Source of the DNA: a virus
Virus record (IMG/VR): IMGVR_UViG_3300048589_001631
Coordinates: 1 to 32,011 of that record
Length of the DNA stretch: 32,011 bases
Strand: one strand, 5' to 3'
In this document: positions 11,699 to 26,175 of the stretch, piece by piece
How positions within the stretch are numbered: the first letter of the stretch is position 1
Layout of the letters: each line of letters opens with the position of its first letter
Made by a program: the position numbers and the translations under genes
Notes under the pieces: model-generated
Database searches by the model: none
What the model was told of the DNA's origin: nothing
Seen by the model: the letters and a program-made list of their open reading frames with translations, nothing else

Positions 11699-12127
11699 AT
11701 GACATCCTTAGATTATCTGAGCGAAGCTTATCGGCTGGATCTTCGCATTGACAGTAAGCTGGGGCAGATTGCTTCCTTGAACGAACTGGCAGAAAAATGT
11801 TCATCGTCTATCACCGGCATGCCGCACGATCCTAGTCACAGCGTATCATCTATGGCAGATGCCGTTGCAAAGATTGTAGATCTTCAGACGGAAATCGACG
11901 GCGATATTCATCGGCTGATAGACATCAAACGTCAGATTGTTGCCGCAATCAAGGCTGTTGATAACAAGGAGTGTCAGACACTGCTTGAACTCCGCTTCCT
12001 CTGTGGACACTCTTGGGAGGAGGTTGCTGCGAAGATGGGGTACAGCATTCAGCATACGTACCGGATGCGGGACCTTGCGCTGAAGAAAATTGTACCCCGT
12101 GCAAATTGGAGAGTAAATGAGAGTTGA
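11699..12127 (+). CDS. DUF1492 / ArpU-like late transcription regulator
   Basis: This 142-residue protein starts with a helical region (about 1-90). It ends in a sigma region 4-like helix-turn-helix (about 98-135: LELRFLCGHSWEEVAAKMGYS, a turn, then HTYRMRDLALKKI). DUF1492, ArpU and RinA proteins occupy this exact place, between replication and packaging genes, and RinA is known to activate late phage genes. The last 18 coding bases are part of a direct repeat that continues into a promoter-terminator cassette (12109-12322). The regulator's stop codon thus lies next to its presumed target promoters. Late-gene control is inferred from family and position. Confidence 0.8.
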   Translation: MTSLDYLSEAYRLDLRIDSKLGQIASLNELAEKCSSSITGMPHDPSHSVSSMADAVAKIVDLQTEIDGDIHRLIDIKRQIVAAIKAVDNKECQTLLELRFLCGHSWEEVAAKMGYSIQHTYRMRDLALKKIVPRANWRVNES

Positions 12128-12151
12128 TGTTATCTTCGGATATAGTAAAAT
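12124..12151 (+). promoter_or_regulatory. Putative late promoter, copy 1
   Basis: TTGATG (12124-12129), a 16-base spacer and TAAAAT (12146-12151) form a sigma-A-like promoter with a good -10 and a degenerate -35. The -35 overlaps the stop codon of the DUF1492 gene. The weak -35 suits an activator-dependent promoter. Confidence 0.5.
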
Positions 12152-12176
12152 GGCTGTGTCGAAAGTTTAGGCGCGG

Positions 12177-12210
12177 GCCACCGAGGGAGAAATCCTGCGG
12201 TGGCTCTTCA
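12177..12210 (+). terminator. Hairpin after late promoter copy 1
   Basis: GCCACCG (12177-12183) pairs with CGGTGGC (12198-12204); AGG and CCT inside the loop can stack further. The downstream tract CTCTTCATTT is only moderately T-rich, so termination may be partial. It lies roughly 20 bases after the expected start site of copy 1. Confidence 0.5.
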
Positions 12211-12249
12211 TTTATCCGTCTGGTTCCAAAAGATGAGAGTAAATGAGAG

Positions 12250-12277
12250 TTGATGTTATCTTCAGATATAGTAGAAT
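12250..12277 (+). promoter_or_regulatory. Putative late promoter, copy 2
   Basis: TTGATG (12250-12255), a 16-base spacer and TAGAAT (12272-12277) repeat the geometry of copy 1 exactly, although the -10 differs by one base. Keeping both boxes and the spacer supports a real promoter. It would drive HNH, terminase and the late genes if transcription passes the adjoining hairpin. Confidence 0.5.
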
Positions 12278-12290
12278 GGCAGTGTAGAAA

Positions 12291-12321
12291 GCCATCGAGG
12301 AGAAATCCCCGGTGGTTTTTT
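12291..12321 (+). terminator. Terminator hairpin after late promoter copy 2
   Basis: CCATCG (12292-12297) pairs with CGGTGG (12310-12315, one G-T pair) and is followed directly by six T residues. It is a stronger terminator than copy 1 and begins within about 10 bases of the expected start site. It lies between promoter copy 2 and the HNH gene, so late transcription must read through it. Confidence 0.65.
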
Positions 12322-12340
12322 CATGCCCGGGAGGAACAGG

Positions 12341-12697
12341 ATGCCATACAAACCGAAGCGCCCGTGCTCCTACCCCGGATGTAGCAGACTGACCGACGGT
12401 AGGTTCTGCGACGAGCACAGGCAGGTTGCGGAGCATCAGTACAATCATTACCTTCGCGACCCTGACACCAACAAACGATATGGCCGCGCGTGGAAGAAGA
12501 TCCGTGCGCGGTTTTTGCTGCTGCATCCCTTATGCGAGCAGTGCCGCCTGGAGAACAGGTTAACGCCGGCGCAGGAGGTGCATCACATTGTTCCGTTGGC
12601 AAACGGTGGAACACACGACGAGCGCAACCTCATGTCGCTATGTAAGAGCTGTCATTCGAAGATCACGATCGGATGCAGCAACACGAAATATAGATGA
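12341..12697 (+). CDS. HNH endonuclease (packaging-associated)
   Basis: This 118-residue HNH nuclease has a zinc-binding CxxC near residue 63 (CEQC) paired with CKSCH near 103. The catalytic segment is VHHIVPLANGG, followed by DERNLMSLC (about 78-101), so the full H-N-H set is present. HNH proteins of this type lie next to the terminase in many HK97-like phages and are needed for genome packaging by stimulating terminase cleavage. GGGAGG at 12329-12334 selects the ATG at 12341 over the in-frame ATG at 12323. It is the first gene after the duplicated promoter-terminator cassette and begins the late operon. Confidence 0.88.
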   Translation: MPYKPKRPCSYPGCSRLTDGRFCDEHRQVAEHQYNHYLRDPDTNKRYGRAWKKIRARFLLLHPLCEQCRLENRLTPAQEVHHIVPLANGGTHDERNLMSLCKSCHSKITIGCSNTKYR

Positions 12698-12835: not shown

Positions 12836-13378
12836 ATGGCAAACGGTCACGGCGGGTCTCGCCCCGGTTCGGGTCAGAAGAAAAAACCGCTGGCAGATAA
12901 GATGCTCGACGGAAATCCCGGCAAGAGGAAGCTGACCGTCATAGAATTTCCGAATGCTGCTGAATTGCAGGGCGCGGAAATGCCGCAACCGCGGGAGATG
13001 TTGTCTGCCGTTCAGAAGGACGGCAAGCCGCTCGTTGCCGCAACGATCTACGAGCGGACCTGGACCTGGCTGGAACAGCGCGGATGTGCGAAGATCGTTT
13101 CCCCTCAGGTGCTCGAGCGGTATGCCATGAGCGCGGCGCGCTGGATTCAGTGTGAAATAGCGATTACAGAATACGGGTTCTTAGCAAAGCATCCGACTAC
13201 CGGAAGCGCGATCCAATCACCCTACGTAGCTATGAGCCAGAACTACATGGCACAGACAAACCGGCTCTGGTTTGAGATTTACCAGATCGTCAGAGAGAAC
13301 TGCGCCGCTGATTATTCTGGCGCGAATCCGCAGGATGACGTCATGGAACGACTGCTGTCCGCGCGCAAGGGGAAATAA
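12836..13378 (+). CDS. terS: Terminase small subunit, P27 family
   Basis: This 180-residue small terminase subunit recognises phage DNA for packaging and hands it to TerL. The N-terminus GSRPGSGQKKK (residues 5-15) with the following LDGNPGKRKL is characteristic of the P27 family, as is the central TWTWLEQRGCAKIVSPQVLERYA helix-turn segment (about 75-100). GGGGAGG at 12821-12827 supports the start at 12836, although the frame is open upstream to 12749. It lies between the HNH gene and the small downstream gene. The large subunit is unusually far away (19894) because the methyltransferase, unknown genes and the RIT element lie in between. Confidence 0.85.
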   Translation: MANGHGGSRPGSGQKKKPLADKMLDGNPGKRKLTVIEFPNAAELQGAEMPQPREMLSAVQKDGKPLVAATIYERTWTWLEQRGCAKIVSPQVLERYAMSAARWIQCEIAITEYGFLAKHPTTGSAIQSPYVAMSQNYMAQTNRLWFEIYQIVRENCAADYSGANPQDDVMERLLSARKGK

Positions 13379-15786: not shown

Positions 15787-15832
15787 AACGATTAGGAAGT
15801 GTGTGTTTGACACGCACTTCCTCTAATTTACT
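15785..15832. terminator. Bidirectional hairpin between DUF4314 and the recombinase operon
   Basis: GGAAGTGTGTG (15795-15805) pairs with CACGCACTTCC (15811-15821), with one G-T pair and a five-base loop. Weaker A/T pairs extend the stem outward. It sits between two convergent genes, 12 bases after the DUF4314 stop and 22 bases after the last recombinase stop, so it can end both transcripts. It lies just inside the element. Confidence 0.6.
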
Positions 15833-15843
15833 CCGCATAATAA

Positions 15844-16869
15844 TTACAGAGATTTGCCGTACCCTTCAAGCCAAGATAGTAAATCCTTATCCTCTGTCCA
15901 GAAGGGAACCGCGCTTACATCGGGAATAAACGCAACCTTTTCTAGAGCTTTGCGCTTCATTTCCAGATTAGAACGTGCATAAATTCCAGTTGTGGCGATG
16001 TTAACATGACCAAGTATGTCACGTATGTAGACTATGTTTACGCCTGCTTCAAGCAAATGCATCGCTTTCGAATGGCGCAGAATATGGGGTGTAACTTTTT
16101 CCGGAATGGTAGGCTGTGCGTTTCGTGCAGCTGCCGCATATTTCTGCAGGATATATCCAATTCCGGATCTTGTTAGTGCCTCATGCCTATGATTAAAAAA
16201 GACAGGATGCTCGTTTGACTGCCCGTACAGTAAATTGCTCTTCTGCATGTAACTCGATAGCAGAATTGTTGTCTGTTCCATTAATGGGACAATGCGCGTT
16301 TTGTTCCCTTTACCGACCAGCTTTATCTGTGCCGGTGCCTGCAGTCTTACGGACGATACAGTGAGATCGGCTATCTCCTGCACGCGGCCACCGGTATCAT
16401 AAAGAACACAAAGCAAAGTCAGATCCCGGCGCCCTTTGCTCGTCGTTGTGTCGGGCTGTCGTAATATCAGCTCAAGGTCTTCCTTGCCAAGATATGATAC
16501 ATACTTTTCAGGAGATTTGCGATTAGGAATGTTCAGCGTCTGTTGACATAAGCTTATTAACTGTGGTTCTTCACCTTGGACATATTTGTAAAAGGAGTGT
16601 ATGGCTGCCAATCGCTGATTTATTGTCGAAGCGGAACACTTTCTTTCCGTTTCAAGCCAGTTCAGAAATGAGGTTACGGTTTCACGGTCTGCATCTTTAA
16701 ATTTGACCTGATTAGGTTCGATTCCTTTGCCCGATTTCAAGAAGGCTAAAAAAAGCCTAAAGGCATCGCAATAGGACGAAATCGTGTTAGTACTGAAGTT
16801 TCGCTGACTGGGCAGATATTCACTCAGGAAGCTACCGAGCAGCAACTGAAATTGATTATTCTTCCTCAT
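15844..16869 (-). CDS. ritC: Tyrosine recombinase, third gene of the RIT trio
   Basis: This 341-residue integrase-family recombinase has an N-terminal SAM-like core-binding domain (about 10-95, STNTISSYCDAFRLFLAFL) and a C-terminal catalytic domain. The catalytic set is visible: Arg in GGRVQE (near 167), HILRHS (near 262), LGH (near 285) and the Tyr nucleophile in TTGIYAR (near 294). It is the downstream gene of the trio and starts inside the second gene, overlapping by 14 bases. GGAGGG seven bases upstream favours the start at 16869 over the ATG at 16875. RIT members are thought to act together; how the three share strand cleavage is not known to me. Confidence 0.87.
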   Translation of the reverse strand: MRKNNQFQLLLGSFLSEYLPSQRNFSTNTISSYCDAFRLFLAFLKSGKGIEPNQVKFKDADRETVTSFLNWLETERKCSASTINQRLAAIHSFYKYVQGEEPQLISLCQQTLNIPNRKSPEKYVSYLGKEDLELILRQPDTTTSKGRRDLTLLCVLYDTGGRVQEIADLTVSSVRLQAPAQIKLVGKGNKTRIVPLMEQTTILLSSYMQKSNLLYGQSNEHPVFFNHRHEALTRSGIGYILQKYAAAARNAQPTIPEKVTPHILRHSKAMHLLEAGVNIVYIRDILGHVNIATTGIYARSNLEMKRKALEKVAFIPDVSAVPFWTEDKDLLSWLEGYGKSL

Positions 16870-17857
16870 AGACATACCCTCCGTTTGGCACGATATACCC
16901 ATAGTGCCTTTCAACGAGTTTGGTGATGTCAGGAAACACATCTGCCGTTAGCCTCAAATATTTGTTGACTGAGTTTAAGTTTACATGCCCCATATAGCTA
17001 GAAAGGACAGGAAACAATGCGTTGATTTTCTCACCGTTGTCGACCCATTTTTTCAGGCAATGAACGGCAAAAGTGTGCCTCAGATCATGGATGCGAGGAC
17101 CATCTTCATTTTTAGGTATGCCTGCGGATTTCAATATCTGGTACCACATGTACGAAACAGTTGTCATCGCATATTTCCCGCCATCGGGCGCTGCAAAGAA
17201 GATACTGGAATCATTAACATTATCAAGGACATTATTTTTGTAGGTCTGACATCGCACAGTAAGTTCTCTGCTCATAGGAGCATAACGGTCAACCTTCCCT
17301 TTGCCGCCCTTTACAGTGATTATGCCATTTTCCAAGTCAAGGTTTTCAACAGTAAGTGCAAGAGCCTCGTTGAGACGCAGCCCACATGAATACAGCACCC
17401 GGAAGAGCAATGACGCGGCATCCCTTCTGTGCGGACTGTTTGAAGGCGCGTTAAGGGCATCTGCTGCAAGAAACAGCCGCTTTATCTCATCTGCTGTGAA
17501 AATGTGTGGCACAAATTTTGAATTTGTTCGGGTACCGTCCAGATGGATCATTGTTTTCGCGCAAGGAAGATCACGGGCGATGAAATAGTTTGTAAGCTGT
17601 GTTGTAACTGTTATCCGGGCGTGCCATGTCTTAATGCTTTCATTAAACGTTCGAACGCACCACGCATCAATTAATTCCTTCGGAAGGGTGTTTGGTGCAA
17701 TATTTAGTTCCTTGCTTATTCGGTCGATCTGGAGAAGCCTATATGACTCGGATGTATATTTACGACCAAGAGCCCGCTTCTCCTCAAGGAACTGCTTCAA
17801 ATGTTCGGCTATTGGGCCTGTAAAATCAGGCATAAAAATCACATTTGACTTACGCAT
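16856..17857 (-). CDS. ritB: Tyrosine recombinase, second gene of the RIT trio
   Basis: This 333-residue recombinase has a core-binding domain (about 10-110) followed by the catalytic domain. Catalytic residues are Arg in CGLRLNEAL (near 160), HDLRHTFAVH (near 255), MGHVN (near 285) and Tyr in SVNKYLR (near 295). All key positions are filled, so it should be active. The frame is open upstream to 17989, but the start at 17857 has a GGAGGAGGT site and overlaps the first gene's stop by 8 bases, the standard coupling in RIT operons. The protein ends in a Glu-rich tail. It is more A+T-rich in codon use than the phage genes. Confidence 0.87.
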   Translation of the reverse strand: MRKSNVIFMPDFTGPIAEHLKQFLEEKRALGRKYTSESYRLLQIDRISKELNIAPNTLPKELIDAWCVRTFNESIKTWHARITVTTQLTNYFIARDLPCAKTMIHLDGTRTNSKFVPHIFTADEIKRLFLAADALNAPSNSPHRRDAASLLFRVLYSCGLRLNEALALTVENLDLENGIITVKGGKGKVDRYAPMSRELTVRCQTYKNNVLDNVNDSSIFFAAPDGGKYAMTTVSYMWYQILKSAGIPKNEDGPRIHDLRHTFAVHCLKKWVDNGEKINALFPVLSSYMGHVNLNSVNKYLRLTADVFPDITKLVERHYGYIVPNGGYVYEEE

Positions 17858-19082
17858 TGGCCAGCACCTCCTCCGGATTAAGCGCACACAGGCGGAGCTT
17901 TTCAATGTCTGCACGGAGATACCTGTTCGTGGAGGCAGGATCTGAATGTCCCAAAACTGCCGATATGGTTTCATACTCAATTCCCGCATCCATCATATGT
18001 GTTGCGAGCGAGAACCGTAATGTATGTGGACCATGAGGCTTTTCGCTCTCCACACTGATTTTTGCTATGCGTAGATATCTTTGCATCTGGTACCAGAATC
18101 GGTCTATTTTACCGAATGGTACGGTGTGTCTTACAAAAATATAAGGGCTTGGATCGTCAGGACGCCCGAATTTTAAGTAATCTATGATTGCTTTGCCAAT
18201 TTCTTCGCTAAGTGGCAACTCTTGTGGGATCCCTGTTTTTTCCTGTACGAAGTGAATGCAACATTTGGTCCAGTCAATGTTTTTAAAAGTGAGAGACAAA
18301 ATATCACCGGAACGCATTCCCAAATGTATCGCCAGCATAAAAATGGCGTAATCTCTCTTGCCTACCGATGTCCCACGCTCAATGGCATTCAGCAGGCGTG
18401 TTGTCTCTTCGATTGTCCATGTATGTGCAAGCCGTTGCTTCCTTGCTGAAACCTTGGGCACATAAACGGAAAGATCCTGTTCAGCAAACTGATTTTCATA
18501 TAAGAACAGGAGGAAGCTTCTGAGTGCATTGACTTTATCTGAGATGGTATTTAATGCGCGTACAGTCAGGAAATGCGTAAATCCTGATATCTTCTCTTTG
18601 CCAAGCGTTTTCAACTCTGATGTAGATGCTACGCCGTTTTGCTTTAAATACATCAGAAACGGTCTTATTGTCCATAGCTTGCTATCTATAGTGCTTTGCT
18701 TAAGATGACGCTCCATACAAGAAGACACGAACCTGTCAAGTACCTCCGAGTAGGATTCAAGCGATATGATGCCAATCTTTGTGGTTCGTATTAATCCGAC
18801 GTCATTCTGTAAAAGCAGAAGATAAAGCAGTGGACGAACAGTTGTGTAATGAAATTTTTTGCAGTCAGCCGAATAGATATCGTCTCCTGCTATATCAATA
18901 TTGTATTCCTCTTGTAGGAATGCCCGAGCCAAGTACCATGAGAATTCATCAATACGGTACTTTTGAGCGTAAACCTGCAGTTTCCGCCAGATAGCAACGT
19001 ATTTTCGGACGAGAGCATCGCAAAATTTTTGTTCTTTAAATGTTTTTGATGCCATAGCAACTAATTCAGATACGTTTGCCAT
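17850..19082 (-). CDS. ritA: Tyrosine recombinase, first gene of the RIT trio
   Basis: This 410-residue protein is the largest recombinase of the trio and is transcribed first. It has an extended N-terminal part (about 1-115), a core-binding domain (about 120-220) and a catalytic domain. The catalytic residues are Arg in LGMRSGD (near 270), HTLRFS (near 358; the usual His after Arg is replaced by Phe), LGH (near 380) and Tyr in NRYLR (near 390). The start at 19082 is chosen because GGGAGG lies ten bases upstream, whereas the longer frame to 19130 would start within the promoter. The operon promoter is at 19108-19135. Confidence 0.87.
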   Translation of the reverse strand: MANVSELVAMASKTFKEQKFCDALVRKYVAIWRKLQVYAQKYRIDEFSWYLARAFLQEEYNIDIAGDDIYSADCKKFHYTTVRPLLYLLLLQNDVGLIRTTKIGIISLESYSEVLDRFVSSCMERHLKQSTIDSKLWTIRPFLMYLKQNGVASTSELKTLGKEKISGFTHFLTVRALNTISDKVNALRSFLLFLYENQFAEQDLSVYVPKVSARKQRLAHTWTIEETTRLLNAIERGTSVGKRDYAIFMLAIHLGMRSGDILSLTFKNIDWTKCCIHFVQEKTGIPQELPLSEEIGKAIIDYLKFGRPDDPSPYIFVRHTVPFGKIDRFWYQMQRYLRIAKISVESEKPHGPHTLRFSLATHMMDAGIEYETISAVLGHSDPASTNRYLRADIEKLRLCALNPEEVLANA

Positions 19083-19107
19083 AATGATAGAACCTCCCGT
19101 TTTATTG

Positions 19108-19135
19108 ATAATAGGAGTATCTGTCATCATGTCAA
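19108..19135 (-). promoter_or_regulatory. Promoter of the RIT recombinase operon
   Basis: On the minus strand TTGACA (19135-19130) and TATTAT (19113-19108) are separated by 16 bases, close to the sigma-A consensus. The start site would fall about 20 bases before the first recombinase's start codon. A TTATGTAGAGTA motif shared with the element ends lies 11 bases upstream of the -35 (19146-19157), where bound recombinase could affect transcription. Confidence 0.65.
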
Positions 19136-19844: not shown

Positions 19845-19870
19845 ACGGAGGCTCACGCGGGCCTCCGTTT
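19845..19870 (+). terminator. Rho-independent terminator before TerL
   Basis: ACGGAGGC (19845-19852) pairs perfectly with GCCTCCGT (19861-19868) around an eight-base loop, followed by TTTT. The preceding stretch, 19742-19844, is G+C-rich with short inverted fragments and no gene. Its place just ahead of the TerL ribosome binding site implies partial or regulated termination within the late operon. Confidence 0.65.
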
Positions 19871-23706: not shown

Positions 23707-23971
23707 GTGCGCCCAGATAGGGTCTTGTTAAAAGTGAACTAAGGTATCACACCGCACGATAATGCGGTAATCCACCTGCCTAACCGAAAGGCGAAAGCTG
23801 GCACGGGAACAGAGCACGGCAGGAAAGCGGTAAGTTGTTCAAAGGCAATCGAACACGACTGAACCGCGAGGATAAGCAGATATGAGGATAAAACTGGATT
23901 TGTTGAATGTGAGTTCCCAATTCTCCCTGCTGTGGAGTAAAGGAAAGTGCCTGAAACCTTTATCACAAGTC

Positions 23972-23998
23972 TTATTGCGTAAGCTCATAGCGCAATAA
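23972..23998 (+). ncRNA. EBS1 stem-loop of intron domain I
   Basis: TTATTGCG (23972-23979) pairs with CGCAATAA (23991-23998), presenting an 11-base loop that contains CTCATA. This sequence is complementary to the last six bases of exon 1 over all six positions. The match identifies the 5' splice site and the recognised target. Confidence 0.75.
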
Positions 23999-24257
23999 AT
24001 TATCGCAACTTGTGAAATGTACCGGAGAACCGGTGCTAACGGAACAAAAGCATATCCGACAATCTGCACACCTATTAACAAAGCTAACTGGGGATACCCT
24101 AAACGGAAACGCCGCAAGGCTATGACATTGAGTGTCTGAAAATTCCGCAAGGGTACGGAGCGTTCGTAGTAGTCAAGGACGGTAACGCCGTCATAATGGC
24201 AAAGGAACGCAGTTGTTGTGTACTAAAATAAATGTTGATTAGGGAGGAAACCCTCAA

Positions 24258-26105
24258 ATGCAACCAACAACGGATATTTTAGAAAGAATCCGAAATAACT
24301 CTGGCAAGAACAAAGAAGAAGTGTTCACCAAACTGTTCCGCTATCTGTTGCGTCCTGACCTCTACTATGAAGCGTATAAAAACTTGTACGCCAATAACGG
24401 AGCTGCAACAAAAGGTGTAAATGATGACACGGCTGACGGTTTTAGCAAAGCGAAGATTGAGAACATCATAAAGTCGCTTACGGAAGAAACTTTTCAGCCA
24501 ACGCCTGTAAGGCGAACCTACATTGAGAAAAAGAACAACCCAAGCAAGAAACGTCCGCTCGGAATACCCACATTTACGGACAAACTTGTGCAAGAGGTTC
24601 TGCGAATGGTACTTGACGCCGTATATGAACCAGTCTTTCTGGACTGTTCTCACGGTTTTCGACCCAACAAAAGCTGTCACACAGCTTTGACATCGCTCAA
24701 AAAAGAGTTTAACGGCGCAAGATGGTTTGTTGAGGGCGACATTAAAGGTTGCTTTGATAATATCGATCACGCCGTTCTCGTGGGTTTGCTAAACAACAAA
24801 GTCAAGGACGCTCGGCTGATAAAACTGATTTACAAATTTCTGAAAGCGGGGTATGTGGAGGATTGGCAATATCACAAGACGTACAGCGGTACGCCGCAGG
24901 GTGGGATAATCTCGCCTTTGCTTGCCAACATCTACCTGCACGAACTGGATAAGTTTGTAATGAAACTTAAAGCTGATTTTGACAGACCCGCAACGCAAGA
25001 CCACACTACCGAATACAATCGATTGCAACGCTGGCGCGCTCGTATCAAACCCCGAATTACTATGGCAGAGGGCGAAGAAAGAGCGGCTCTGATTGCACAA
25101 TCACAGGCGTGGCGAAAACAACTGCTGGAAACGCCTTGCAAATCTCAAACGGATAAGAAAATGAAGTATATCCGTTATGCGGATGATTTTCTCATCGCCG
25201 TAAATGGGAATCGTGAGGACTGCGTAGAAATAAAGCGCAAACTTTCTGAGTTTACTAGTATTACCCTAAAAATGGAACTCAGCGAAGAAAAAACGCTTAT
25301 CACGCACAGCAATGAATGCGCGCGTTTTCTCGGTTATGATGTTCGTGTTCGGCGTGACGGGAAAATCAAACACGGAGCGGCGGGAAATAAGAAAAAACGA
25401 ACGCTTAACAACAACACCGAATTGTCAATACCCCTTGAAGATAAAATCCATAAGTTCCTGTTTTCAAAGGGTGTGGTGGAACAAAAAGCGGACGGAACAC
25501 TATTCCCAATCGCAAGACCTTCTTTGTTCAGACAAACAGACTTTGAAATCGTTTCAACCTTTAACGCCGAATTGCGGGGAATATGCAACTATTATTCTTT
25601 GGCGGGCAATTTCAGCAAGTTGAATTTCTTTGCCTATCTTATGGAATACAGTTGTTTGAAAACCATGGCCGGCAAGCACAAAAGCACTATTTCCCAAATT
25701 GTCAGTCAACATCAGGACGGTAAAGGGAACTGGGGCATTCCCTATCAAACAAAAAACGGGGAGAAGCGATTATACTTTGCAGATTACACCGAAGCCAAAA
25801 AGGTGCGTAGCGCATGCGATTTTATCACGAACGCCGCTCTGATGAACGGCAGCACGCGAAACACCTTTGAACAACGGTTAAATGCAAATGTCTGTGAATT
25901 ATGTGGCAACATCGAAAGTGACCATTATGAAATTCATCACGTCCACAAGATGAAAGACCTCAAAGGTAAAGAGCCATGGGAACGTGCAATGATAGCCAAA
26001 CGGCGAAAAACATTAGTGGTATGCCGAGATTGTCACAAAAAGATACATCGTCAGAGTTGTAAAGACCAAACAACAATGGAGAGCCGTATACTCCGAGAGG
26101 GGTAA
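24258..26105 (+). CDS. ltrA: Group II intron reverse transcriptase/maturase/endonuclease
   Basis: This 615-residue intron-encoded protein has RT blocks from about residue 75. RPLGIPTFTDKLVQEVLRMVL is near 95, FVEGDIKGCFDNIDH near 157, GTPQGGIISPLLANIYLHELD near 210, and the catalytic YADD in IRYADDFLIAV near 302. A maturase (X) domain follows at about 400-490. The C-terminal HNH endonuclease has CELCG near 545, EIHHVHKMKDLKGK near 555 and CRDCHKKIH near 593, all with intact zinc ligands. AGGGAGG at 24241-24247 supports the start. The protein helps the intron splice and cuts target DNA for retrohoming. Full length and unbroken motifs suggest a functional, probably recent insertion. Confidence 0.94.
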   Translation: MQPTTDILERIRNNSGKNKEEVFTKLFRYLLRPDLYYEAYKNLYANNGAATKGVNDDTADGFSKAKIENIIKSLTEETFQPTPVRRTYIEKKNNPSKKRPLGIPTFTDKLVQEVLRMVLDAVYEPVFLDCSHGFRPNKSCHTALTSLKKEFNGARWFVEGDIKGCFDNIDHAVLVGLLNNKVKDARLIKLIYKFLKAGYVEDWQYHKTYSGTPQGGIISPLLANIYLHELDKFVMKLKADFDRPATQDHTTEYNRLQRWRARIKPRITMAEGEERAALIAQSQAWRKQLLETPCKSQTDKKMKYIRYADDFLIAVNGNREDCVEIKRKLSEFTSITLKMELSEEKTLITHSNECARFLGYDVRVRRDGKIKHGAAGNKKKRTLNNNTELSIPLEDKIHKFLFSKGVVEQKADGTLFPIARPSLFRQTDFEIVSTFNAELRGICNYYSLAGNFSKLNFFAYLMEYSCLKTMAGKHKSTISQIVSQHQDGKGNWGIPYQTKNGEKRLYFADYTEAKKVRSACDFITNAALMNGSTRNTFEQRLNANVCELCGNIESDHYEIHHVHKMKDLKGKEPWERAMIAKRRKTLVVCRDCHKKIHRQSCKDQTTMESRILREG

Positions 26106-26175
26106 GTACGGTTTGGGGAGAGGGTGAAGCAAACCTGCCGCTGAAAGGCGGCAAGGCGGCTTTTCCCTACTCTAC
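26081..26175 (+). ncRNA. Group II intron domains V and VI
   Basis: Domain V spans about 26081-26113: a GAGCCGTA arm, a CGAGAG loop and a TACGGTT arm. It contains the catalytic AGC triad. Domain VI follows (about 26117-26170), with the G+C-rich CTGCCG/CGGCAG stem and a bulged A expected in the AAGGCGG segment as branch point. Its 5' edge overlaps the end of the maturase gene, as in other introns of this class. Confidence 0.8.

Follow-up and report, generated by a model that had tools for sequence, protein, structure and literature searches.

What does a promoter gain from a terminator placed directly behind it? The question is raised by a phage locus in which a promoter-like sequence and a terminator-like hairpin follow one another, twice, at the entrance to the late genes. 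The window, meaning the whole stretch of 32,011 nt that was analysed, is viral and corresponds to positions 1-32,011 of the IMG/VR record IMGVR_UViG_3300048589_001631. From left to right it carried genes for a VapE-like protein, a nuclease, an antirepressor, a helicase, a small ORF and a regulator, and then the two cassettes (12109-12321). Downstream were the genes for an HNH endonuclease and the terminase small subunit (TerS), followed by TerL, portal and capsid, which confirmed the position ahead of HNH and TerS given in an earlier note on this DNA. The order helicase, small ORF, regulator, cassette, HNH, TerS agreed with the gene order of PHROG 36 (RinA-type) regulators. The genes that frame the cassettes were as follows.

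11699-12127, plus strand: late transcription regulator, 142 aa, PHROG 36 (RinA-type; phrog_36, E 2e-23)
about 12330-12336, plus strand: ribosome-binding site of the HNH gene
12341-12697, plus strand: HNH endonuclease gene, the first gene of the late operon (PF01844, 2e-14; phrog_144)
12836-13378, plus strand: TerS gene (PF05119, phrog_83; start chosen by its ribosome-binding site)

Other elements were found further into the window. Three tyrosine recombinase genes in succession on the minus strand (15844-19130), resembling a recombinase-in-trio element, split the late operon, with methyltransferase/amidoligase-like genes on one side and TerL on the other. A group II intron with an RT/maturase and an HNH domain (about 23750-26175) lay between the ClpP-type protease gene and the major capsid gene, and a group II intron was the sole match in an Rfam search of the whole window. 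Two more terminator-like hairpins on the plus strand were located within the late operon (15795-15821 and 19845-19868, the second just 5' of TerL), and late transcription must pass both of them unless other promoters exist.

The near-identical duplication reported earlier at 12109-12322 was real. A 57-nt promoter block was present twice (12109-12165 and 12235-12291), with 93% identity and a start-to-start distance of 126 nt, and a hairpin followed each copy. The elements of the two cassettes were assigned as follows.

12109-12128, plus strand: candidate regulator-binding direct repeats, copy 1 (GAGAGT at 12109 and 12119; from sequence, the 10-bp periodicity over 93 cassettes and recognition-helix covariation)
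12146-12151, plus strand: -10 element, copy 1, TAAAAT (start site estimated near 12158)
12175-12214, plus strand: terminator-like hairpin, copy 1, stem-loop 12175-12206, weak U-tract included (fold z; model R1, 38.9 bits)
12235-12254, plus strand: candidate regulator-binding direct repeats, copy 2 (GAGAGT at 12235 and 12245; from sequence)
12272-12277, plus strand: -10 element, copy 2, TAGAAT (start site estimated near 12284)
12289-12321, plus strand: terminator-like hairpin, copy 2, stem-loop 12289-12318, TTTTTT included (fold z; model R1, 35.8 bits)

The repeats of copy 1 overlapped the final codons of the regulator gene. Promoter-like matches in the cassette region numbered six against 1.2 expected. 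TTGATG-16-TAAAAT was located at 12124-12151 in copy 1 and TTGATG-16-TAGAAT at 12250-12277 in copy 2. The hairpin directly behind each promoter copy was borne out by folding against shuffled sequences (z of -3.7 to -4.6 for copy 1 and -4.2 to -5.2 for copy 2), and its terminator-like character is a prediction. The covariance model R1 scored the two hairpins at 38.9 and 35.8 bits and the next-best match in the window at 13.6 bits, both window hairpins being among the family hairpins on which R1 was trained. The U-tract of copy 1 (TTCATTTA) was weak and stood behind a strong stem; that of copy 2 was TTTTTT. A simple terminator scan of the window flagged neither cassette hairpin, and a scan for a stem of at least 6 bp with a T-rich tail detected both. 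With the estimated starts, a promoter followed by a terminator would give short RNAs of about 56 nt (copy 1) and 38 nt (copy 2).

The difference CCACCG/CCATCG against CGGTGG had been read as compensated. It is in fact a one-sided change that gives a U-G wobble; genuine two-sided changes occur between phages and not between these segments of the window copies. The two window hairpins matched different relatives, copy 1 that of locus L012 and copy 2 that of locus L054, which suggests exchange between phages. Since the two copies bear different hairpins, an assembly artefact was ruled out as the source of the duplication. Similar tandem cassettes were found in L026/L157, L071/L072 and L093, so tandem copies exist in at least four lineages.

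The earlier note had proposed looking for the cassette behind such regulator genes in other prophages. Relatives of the regulator were collected from viral and genome contigs, giving 194 loci with the gene, of which 146 were unique and 100 non-redundant (<92% identity). A hairpin was called terminator-like if it had a stem of at least 6 bp, a dG of -14 or lower and a T-rich tail and lay no more than 150 nt past the regulator stop codon. Such a hairpin was found in 93 of the 100 non-redundant loci. Of 500 dinucleotide shuffles, 2 had one, and of 611 other ORF ends taken from these loci, 20 did. In the aligned hairpins 92.8% of the cells were paired while the sequence drifted; selection by foldability inflates this paired fraction, yet it does not explain the 93 of 100 loci. 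Two-sided changes were present at 9 of 12 hairpin pairs in some sequences, and the covariation score was 0.629 against 0.338 in shuffled alignments and at most 0.23 with slid partners. R1 matched in 93/100 loci and, over the 557 kb searched, gave one weak forward match away from the late cassettes; a few reverse-strand matches were the same hairpins read backwards. Many of the loops were GNRA tetraloops with an A-U closing pair. Sequence comparison thus indicates a genuine layout of promoter and then terminator beside the late regulator, one that is deeply conserved and structurally constrained. As a separate observation, TTATGCCC stood directly 3' of the U-tract in many of the 93 cassettes, despite widely differing promoters and regulators.

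The promoters were compared in 93 cassettes anchored on the -10 element. The TTGATG-16-TARAAT motif and its spacing were present in both window copies as the earlier note described, whereas TTGATG as a true conserved -35 was rejected, since the match to TTGACA at 16-18 nt over the 93 cassettes equalled that of shuffled sequences (2.53 vs. 2.53). The 45 nt upstream instead contained direct repeats with a period of 10 bp (z = 22; z = 10.5 at the 20-bp lag). A typical cassette had three half-sites, the last one at the -35 position. The clade of the window had two GAGAGT half-sites 10 bp apart, and TTGATG begins on the last base of the second. In most relatives the repeats spanned about -56 to -31 from the estimated start, that is, at and upstream of the -35 position and not between -35 and -10. 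Because these promoters have no -35, initiation itself looks regulator-dependent, unlike that at the constitutive pR'.

The distance from the end of the -10 element to the first G-C pair of the hairpin had a median of 21 nt. With a start site assumed 7 nt past the -10 element, the stem would begin about 14 nt into the RNA. A leader this short cannot accommodate a competing antiterminator stem or a riboswitch-like alternative fold, and riboswitch-type attenuation was rejected for this reason. A second -10-like hexamer occurred between the -10 element and the hairpin in 66 of the 93 cassettes, compared with 28 in shuffled sequences (maximum 38 in 500 shuffles), and its position peaked 7-8 nt behind the -10 element. 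This pause-like element is suggestive in the family and no stronger, as the related sequences are not independent and a good match was absent from both window copies.

The adjoining gene had been called a DUF1492 regulator. Close relatives of the protein exceeded the gathering cut-off of Pfam DUF1492 (PF07374) with 22.8-23.7 bits, but the window protein itself reached 19.5 bits, under the cut-off of 21.5. The RinA subfamily TIGR01636 gave no match to the regulator at E <= 5. A search of the relatives of this class with TIGR01637 (ArpU) returned none above the cut-off, and the few weak matches that were checked had no cassette. The AlphaFold2 model of the regulator (pLDDT 84.8) showed a long helical hairpin at the N-terminus and, at the C-terminus, an HTH that superposed on sigma region 4 with an rmsd of 1.2-2 A over about 50 residues (Foldseek E >= 0.07, weak). 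Among the matches listed, those of Foldseek to the C-terminal domain were to sigma region 4 (none at E <= 0.001) and those of VIA-align to the N-terminal hairpin were to generic long helices; Q21 was absent from these listings, which does not speak against a Q-like fold. The regulator alignment, used as a profile against solved structures, found no meaningful match.

The half-sites changed together with the recognition helix. GAGAG went with QH or QY (25 loci), GTCAC/GACAC mostly with RH or RY (31 loci), TACAG with DN or EN (10 loci) and GATAC with HH (4 loci). The partial Mantel correlation was 0.567 with the N-terminal domain controlled, and none of 1000 permutations was as high. This covariation beyond relatedness is the best evidence that the regulator binds the repeats. 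Most likely, then, the regulator recognises the direct repeats spaced by 10 bp, which would replace the -35 element.

In eight loci the R1 hairpin was far from the regulator (329-1796 nt), with other sequence in between. This sequence included toxin-antitoxin-like or abortive-infection-like genes or a small zinc-ribbon gene in several of them, and in all eight the repeats, the -10 element and the hairpin were found together immediately 5' of the late genes. Accessory sequence, some of it toxin-antitoxin-like or abortive-infection-like, has repeatedly been inserted between the regulator and the late cassette (L053, L108, L118, L179 and L200). Four loci (L111, L120, L233 and L246) had two promoter copies: the first, ahead of an inserted small gene, had no hairpin, and the second, ahead of the late genes, had one. 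The first copies imply that promoter activity is independent of the terminator, and the restriction of the hairpin to the copy before the late genes implies that it belongs to the promoter of the late operon. Past position 2905 of L111, one regulator was accompanied by two cassettes with unlike half-sites, GAGAGT before the inserted gene and GACAC before the late operon. This mismatch is possibly a leftover of recombination.

Here, we propose that the cassette is a gated entry to the late operon of packaging and morphogenesis genes, at which the regulator starts transcription and polymerase modified by it conditionally reads through the terminator; we give this reading an even chance. In the first step, strongly supported by the sequence comparison, the sigma-region-4-like HTH on the tandem half-sites would substitute for the -35 element, and RNA polymerase would start at the -10 element. 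In the second, which the predicted structure supports, the conserved intrinsic terminator would fold about 14 nt past the start, so that early read-through and basal starts would stop as RNAs of about 40-60 nt and the late genes would stay silent. In the third, we infer that in the late phase a polymerase started with the regulator bound would pass the terminator. The simplest route would be that the regulator, or a host factor recruited by it, rides the young elongation complex in the manner of Q, AlpA and GafZ. As the leader has no room for an alternative fold, the terminator is most likely passed through a modification of the polymerase. In the window phage, the tandem copy would repeat the same gate. 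Two or three hairpins in series, as in several phages, are hard to square with strong late expression unless they are passed. Conditional read-through would explain why strong hairpins persist, why they occur in series and why a -10-like element is present. Several points speak against it. The repeats are at and upstream of the -35 position, as would be expected of the site of a plain activator; neither window copy has a good -10-like pause element, terminator strength is a prediction and the U-tract is weak in copy 1; the known RinA and Ltr proteins have been described as activators (PMC13123087); the first promoter copies in the four loci named above have no hairpin; and genes behind further hairpins could use internal promoters.

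Some of these points favour a second explanation, a serious one that we nevertheless lean against, in which the regulator activates initiation only, as RinA and Ltr do, with no antitermination. The hairpin would then be the terminator of the early operon and a roadblock to stray transcription, leaky or outcompeted under strong activation, and it would sit behind the promoter because the repeats overlap the 3' end of the regulator gene. This is simpler than conditional read-through, transcription of the regulator gene inevitably reaches the hairpin, and activation by Ltr of phi13 has been demonstrated (PMC13123087). The repeats at the -35 position of promoters without a -35, and the hairpin-less copies before inserted genes, also agree with it. 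It fits less well with the eight loci in which there is ample room and the hairpin is still behind the late promoter, for which common descent may account. Moreover, tandem and triple hairpins would throttle the late operon, and the -10-like element at a fixed place is left unexplained.

It is improbable that the hairpin serves to stabilise the 5' end of the late mRNA, or of a processed leader, instead of acting as a terminator. Its place at the extreme 5' end of the late mRNA and its GNRA-like loops would suit that role, but a stabiliser does not need the T-rich tail that follows the stem in at least 93/100 loci. The earlier note raised a short abundant RNA; that the cassette exists to make such an RNA, of about 40-60 nt and with a regulatory role, is more improbable still: a promoter and a terminator with nothing coding between them and estimates of 56 and 38 nt are what it would predict, and yet the stem drifts in sequence while pairing is kept, and the copies with hairpins precede late genes, so that a role in cis fits better than one in trans. 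There is next to no chance that the conserved stretch is a mere recombination boundary between phage modules or a packaging signal of the cos or pac type: the window hairpins resemble different relatives (L054 and L012), so modules recombine here, and packaging genes follow, but alignment and covariation found RNA pairing and the T tail kept under selection rather than the DNA letters, a promoter on the same strand lies at a narrow distance, and PHROG 36 relatives carry unrelated hairpin sequences.

The layout extended to the wider PHROG 36 family. By profile, its members included RinA of phi11 (1.9e-38) and the regulators of SAP33, Lactobacillus PLE2, Faecalibacterium Taranis and the Gardnerella AB1 and Terrisporobacter phages. 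In the leaders of phi11, SAP33, PLE2, Taranis and Gardnerella AB1, a -10-like region and then a terminator-like hairpin preceded the next gene, which was HNH or terS in four of the five. Terminator-like hairpins were also present in the terS leaders of SpT5, StB27 and phiSP44-1, and the GenBank record of a phi11 relative annotates a putative rho-independent terminator in the terS leader. R1 did not match the leaders of phi11, TP901-1 and SAP2, so the RinA hairpins are alike in kind and not in sequence. At the Alt promoter of TP901-1 there was no strong terminator-like hairpin close behind; weaker ones were nearer terS. Between regulator and terS, hairpins stood in series in phages of S. hominis and S. 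pseudintermedius, with two in L380 (95-927) and three or more in L381 (241-950). The cabRNA (PMC10686824) was rejected as an element of the cassette, since it arises within terS-terL and not in the leader.

Late control in Gram-positive phages is currently described as plain activation by RinA/Ltr. That a terminator-like hairpin follows almost all of the promoters of this kind examined, the phi11 promoter included, points to a step missing from this picture. The switch recurred in nearly all the related phages compared, and this suggests a regulator that must start transcription and also carry polymerase past a stop signal. As a tentative generalisation, which falls somewhat short of an even chance, the PHROG 36 late regulators of Firmicute and some actinobacterial phages might all be promoter-loaded antiterminators besides activators, a Gram-positive counterpart of Q that was missed because assays measured only activation. 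The correspondence between half-site and recognition helix also makes the DNA-binding code of a large family of regulators readable. In the literature searched, to which two founding papers on these regulators did not belong, a terminator behind the late promoters of RinA/Ltr was nowhere described; an earlier notice may exist. The paper on phi13 Ltr deals with activation only, and the words terminator and antitermination are absent from it (PMC13123087).

Among known systems, the RinA/Ltr regulators (RinA of phi11 and 80alpha, Ltr of phi13 and Alt of TP901-1) share with the window regulator the gene position, the repeats upstream of the -10 element and the late operon downstream, and RinA of phi11 also shares PHROG 36 and a terS leader with a terminator-like hairpin. 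The window regulator differs from them in its diverged sequence, below the DUF1492 cut-off and without a TIGR01636 match. A useful precedent is AlpA of Pseudomonas, which was shown to act by antitermination and not by activation and whose promoter is followed by an intrinsic terminator (PMC7969949), and in the Caulobacter GTA the promoter regulated by GafYZ is followed by one or more intrinsic terminators, the HTH of GafZ being sigma-like (PMC11150451). The cassette resembles both in its regulated promoter and predicted terminator, and GafZ in the sigma-like HTH. However, their binding elements lie between -35 and -10 and their hosts are different, and the likeness is not claimed as homology.

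The Q protein of phage 21 has a sigma-region-4-like DNA-binding domain, and at lambdoid Q-dependent late promoters the initially transcribed region contains a -10-like pause signal (PMC6606751). Q of phage 21 or lambda and the cassette have in common a late promoter with a terminator (predicted in the cassette) behind it, an HTH like sigma region 4 (predicted in the window regulator), a direct-repeat site and perhaps, in most relatives of the cassette, a -10-like element early in the transcribed region. The analogy with lambda pR'-tR' drawn in the earlier note therefore held for a late promoter followed by a predicted terminator and failed for the binding site, since the cassette has no -35 of its own and its repeats, 10 bp apart, are at and upstream of that position and not between -35 and -10. 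The window regulator is also unlike Q in its predicted long N-terminal helical hairpin, and the window copies have no pause-like element. As the site of the binding element and the absent -35 do not fit the Q module, the system was assigned to the PHROG 36 regulators. By analogy, the cassette may nevertheless function as a gated late promoter, much as in Q-type systems.
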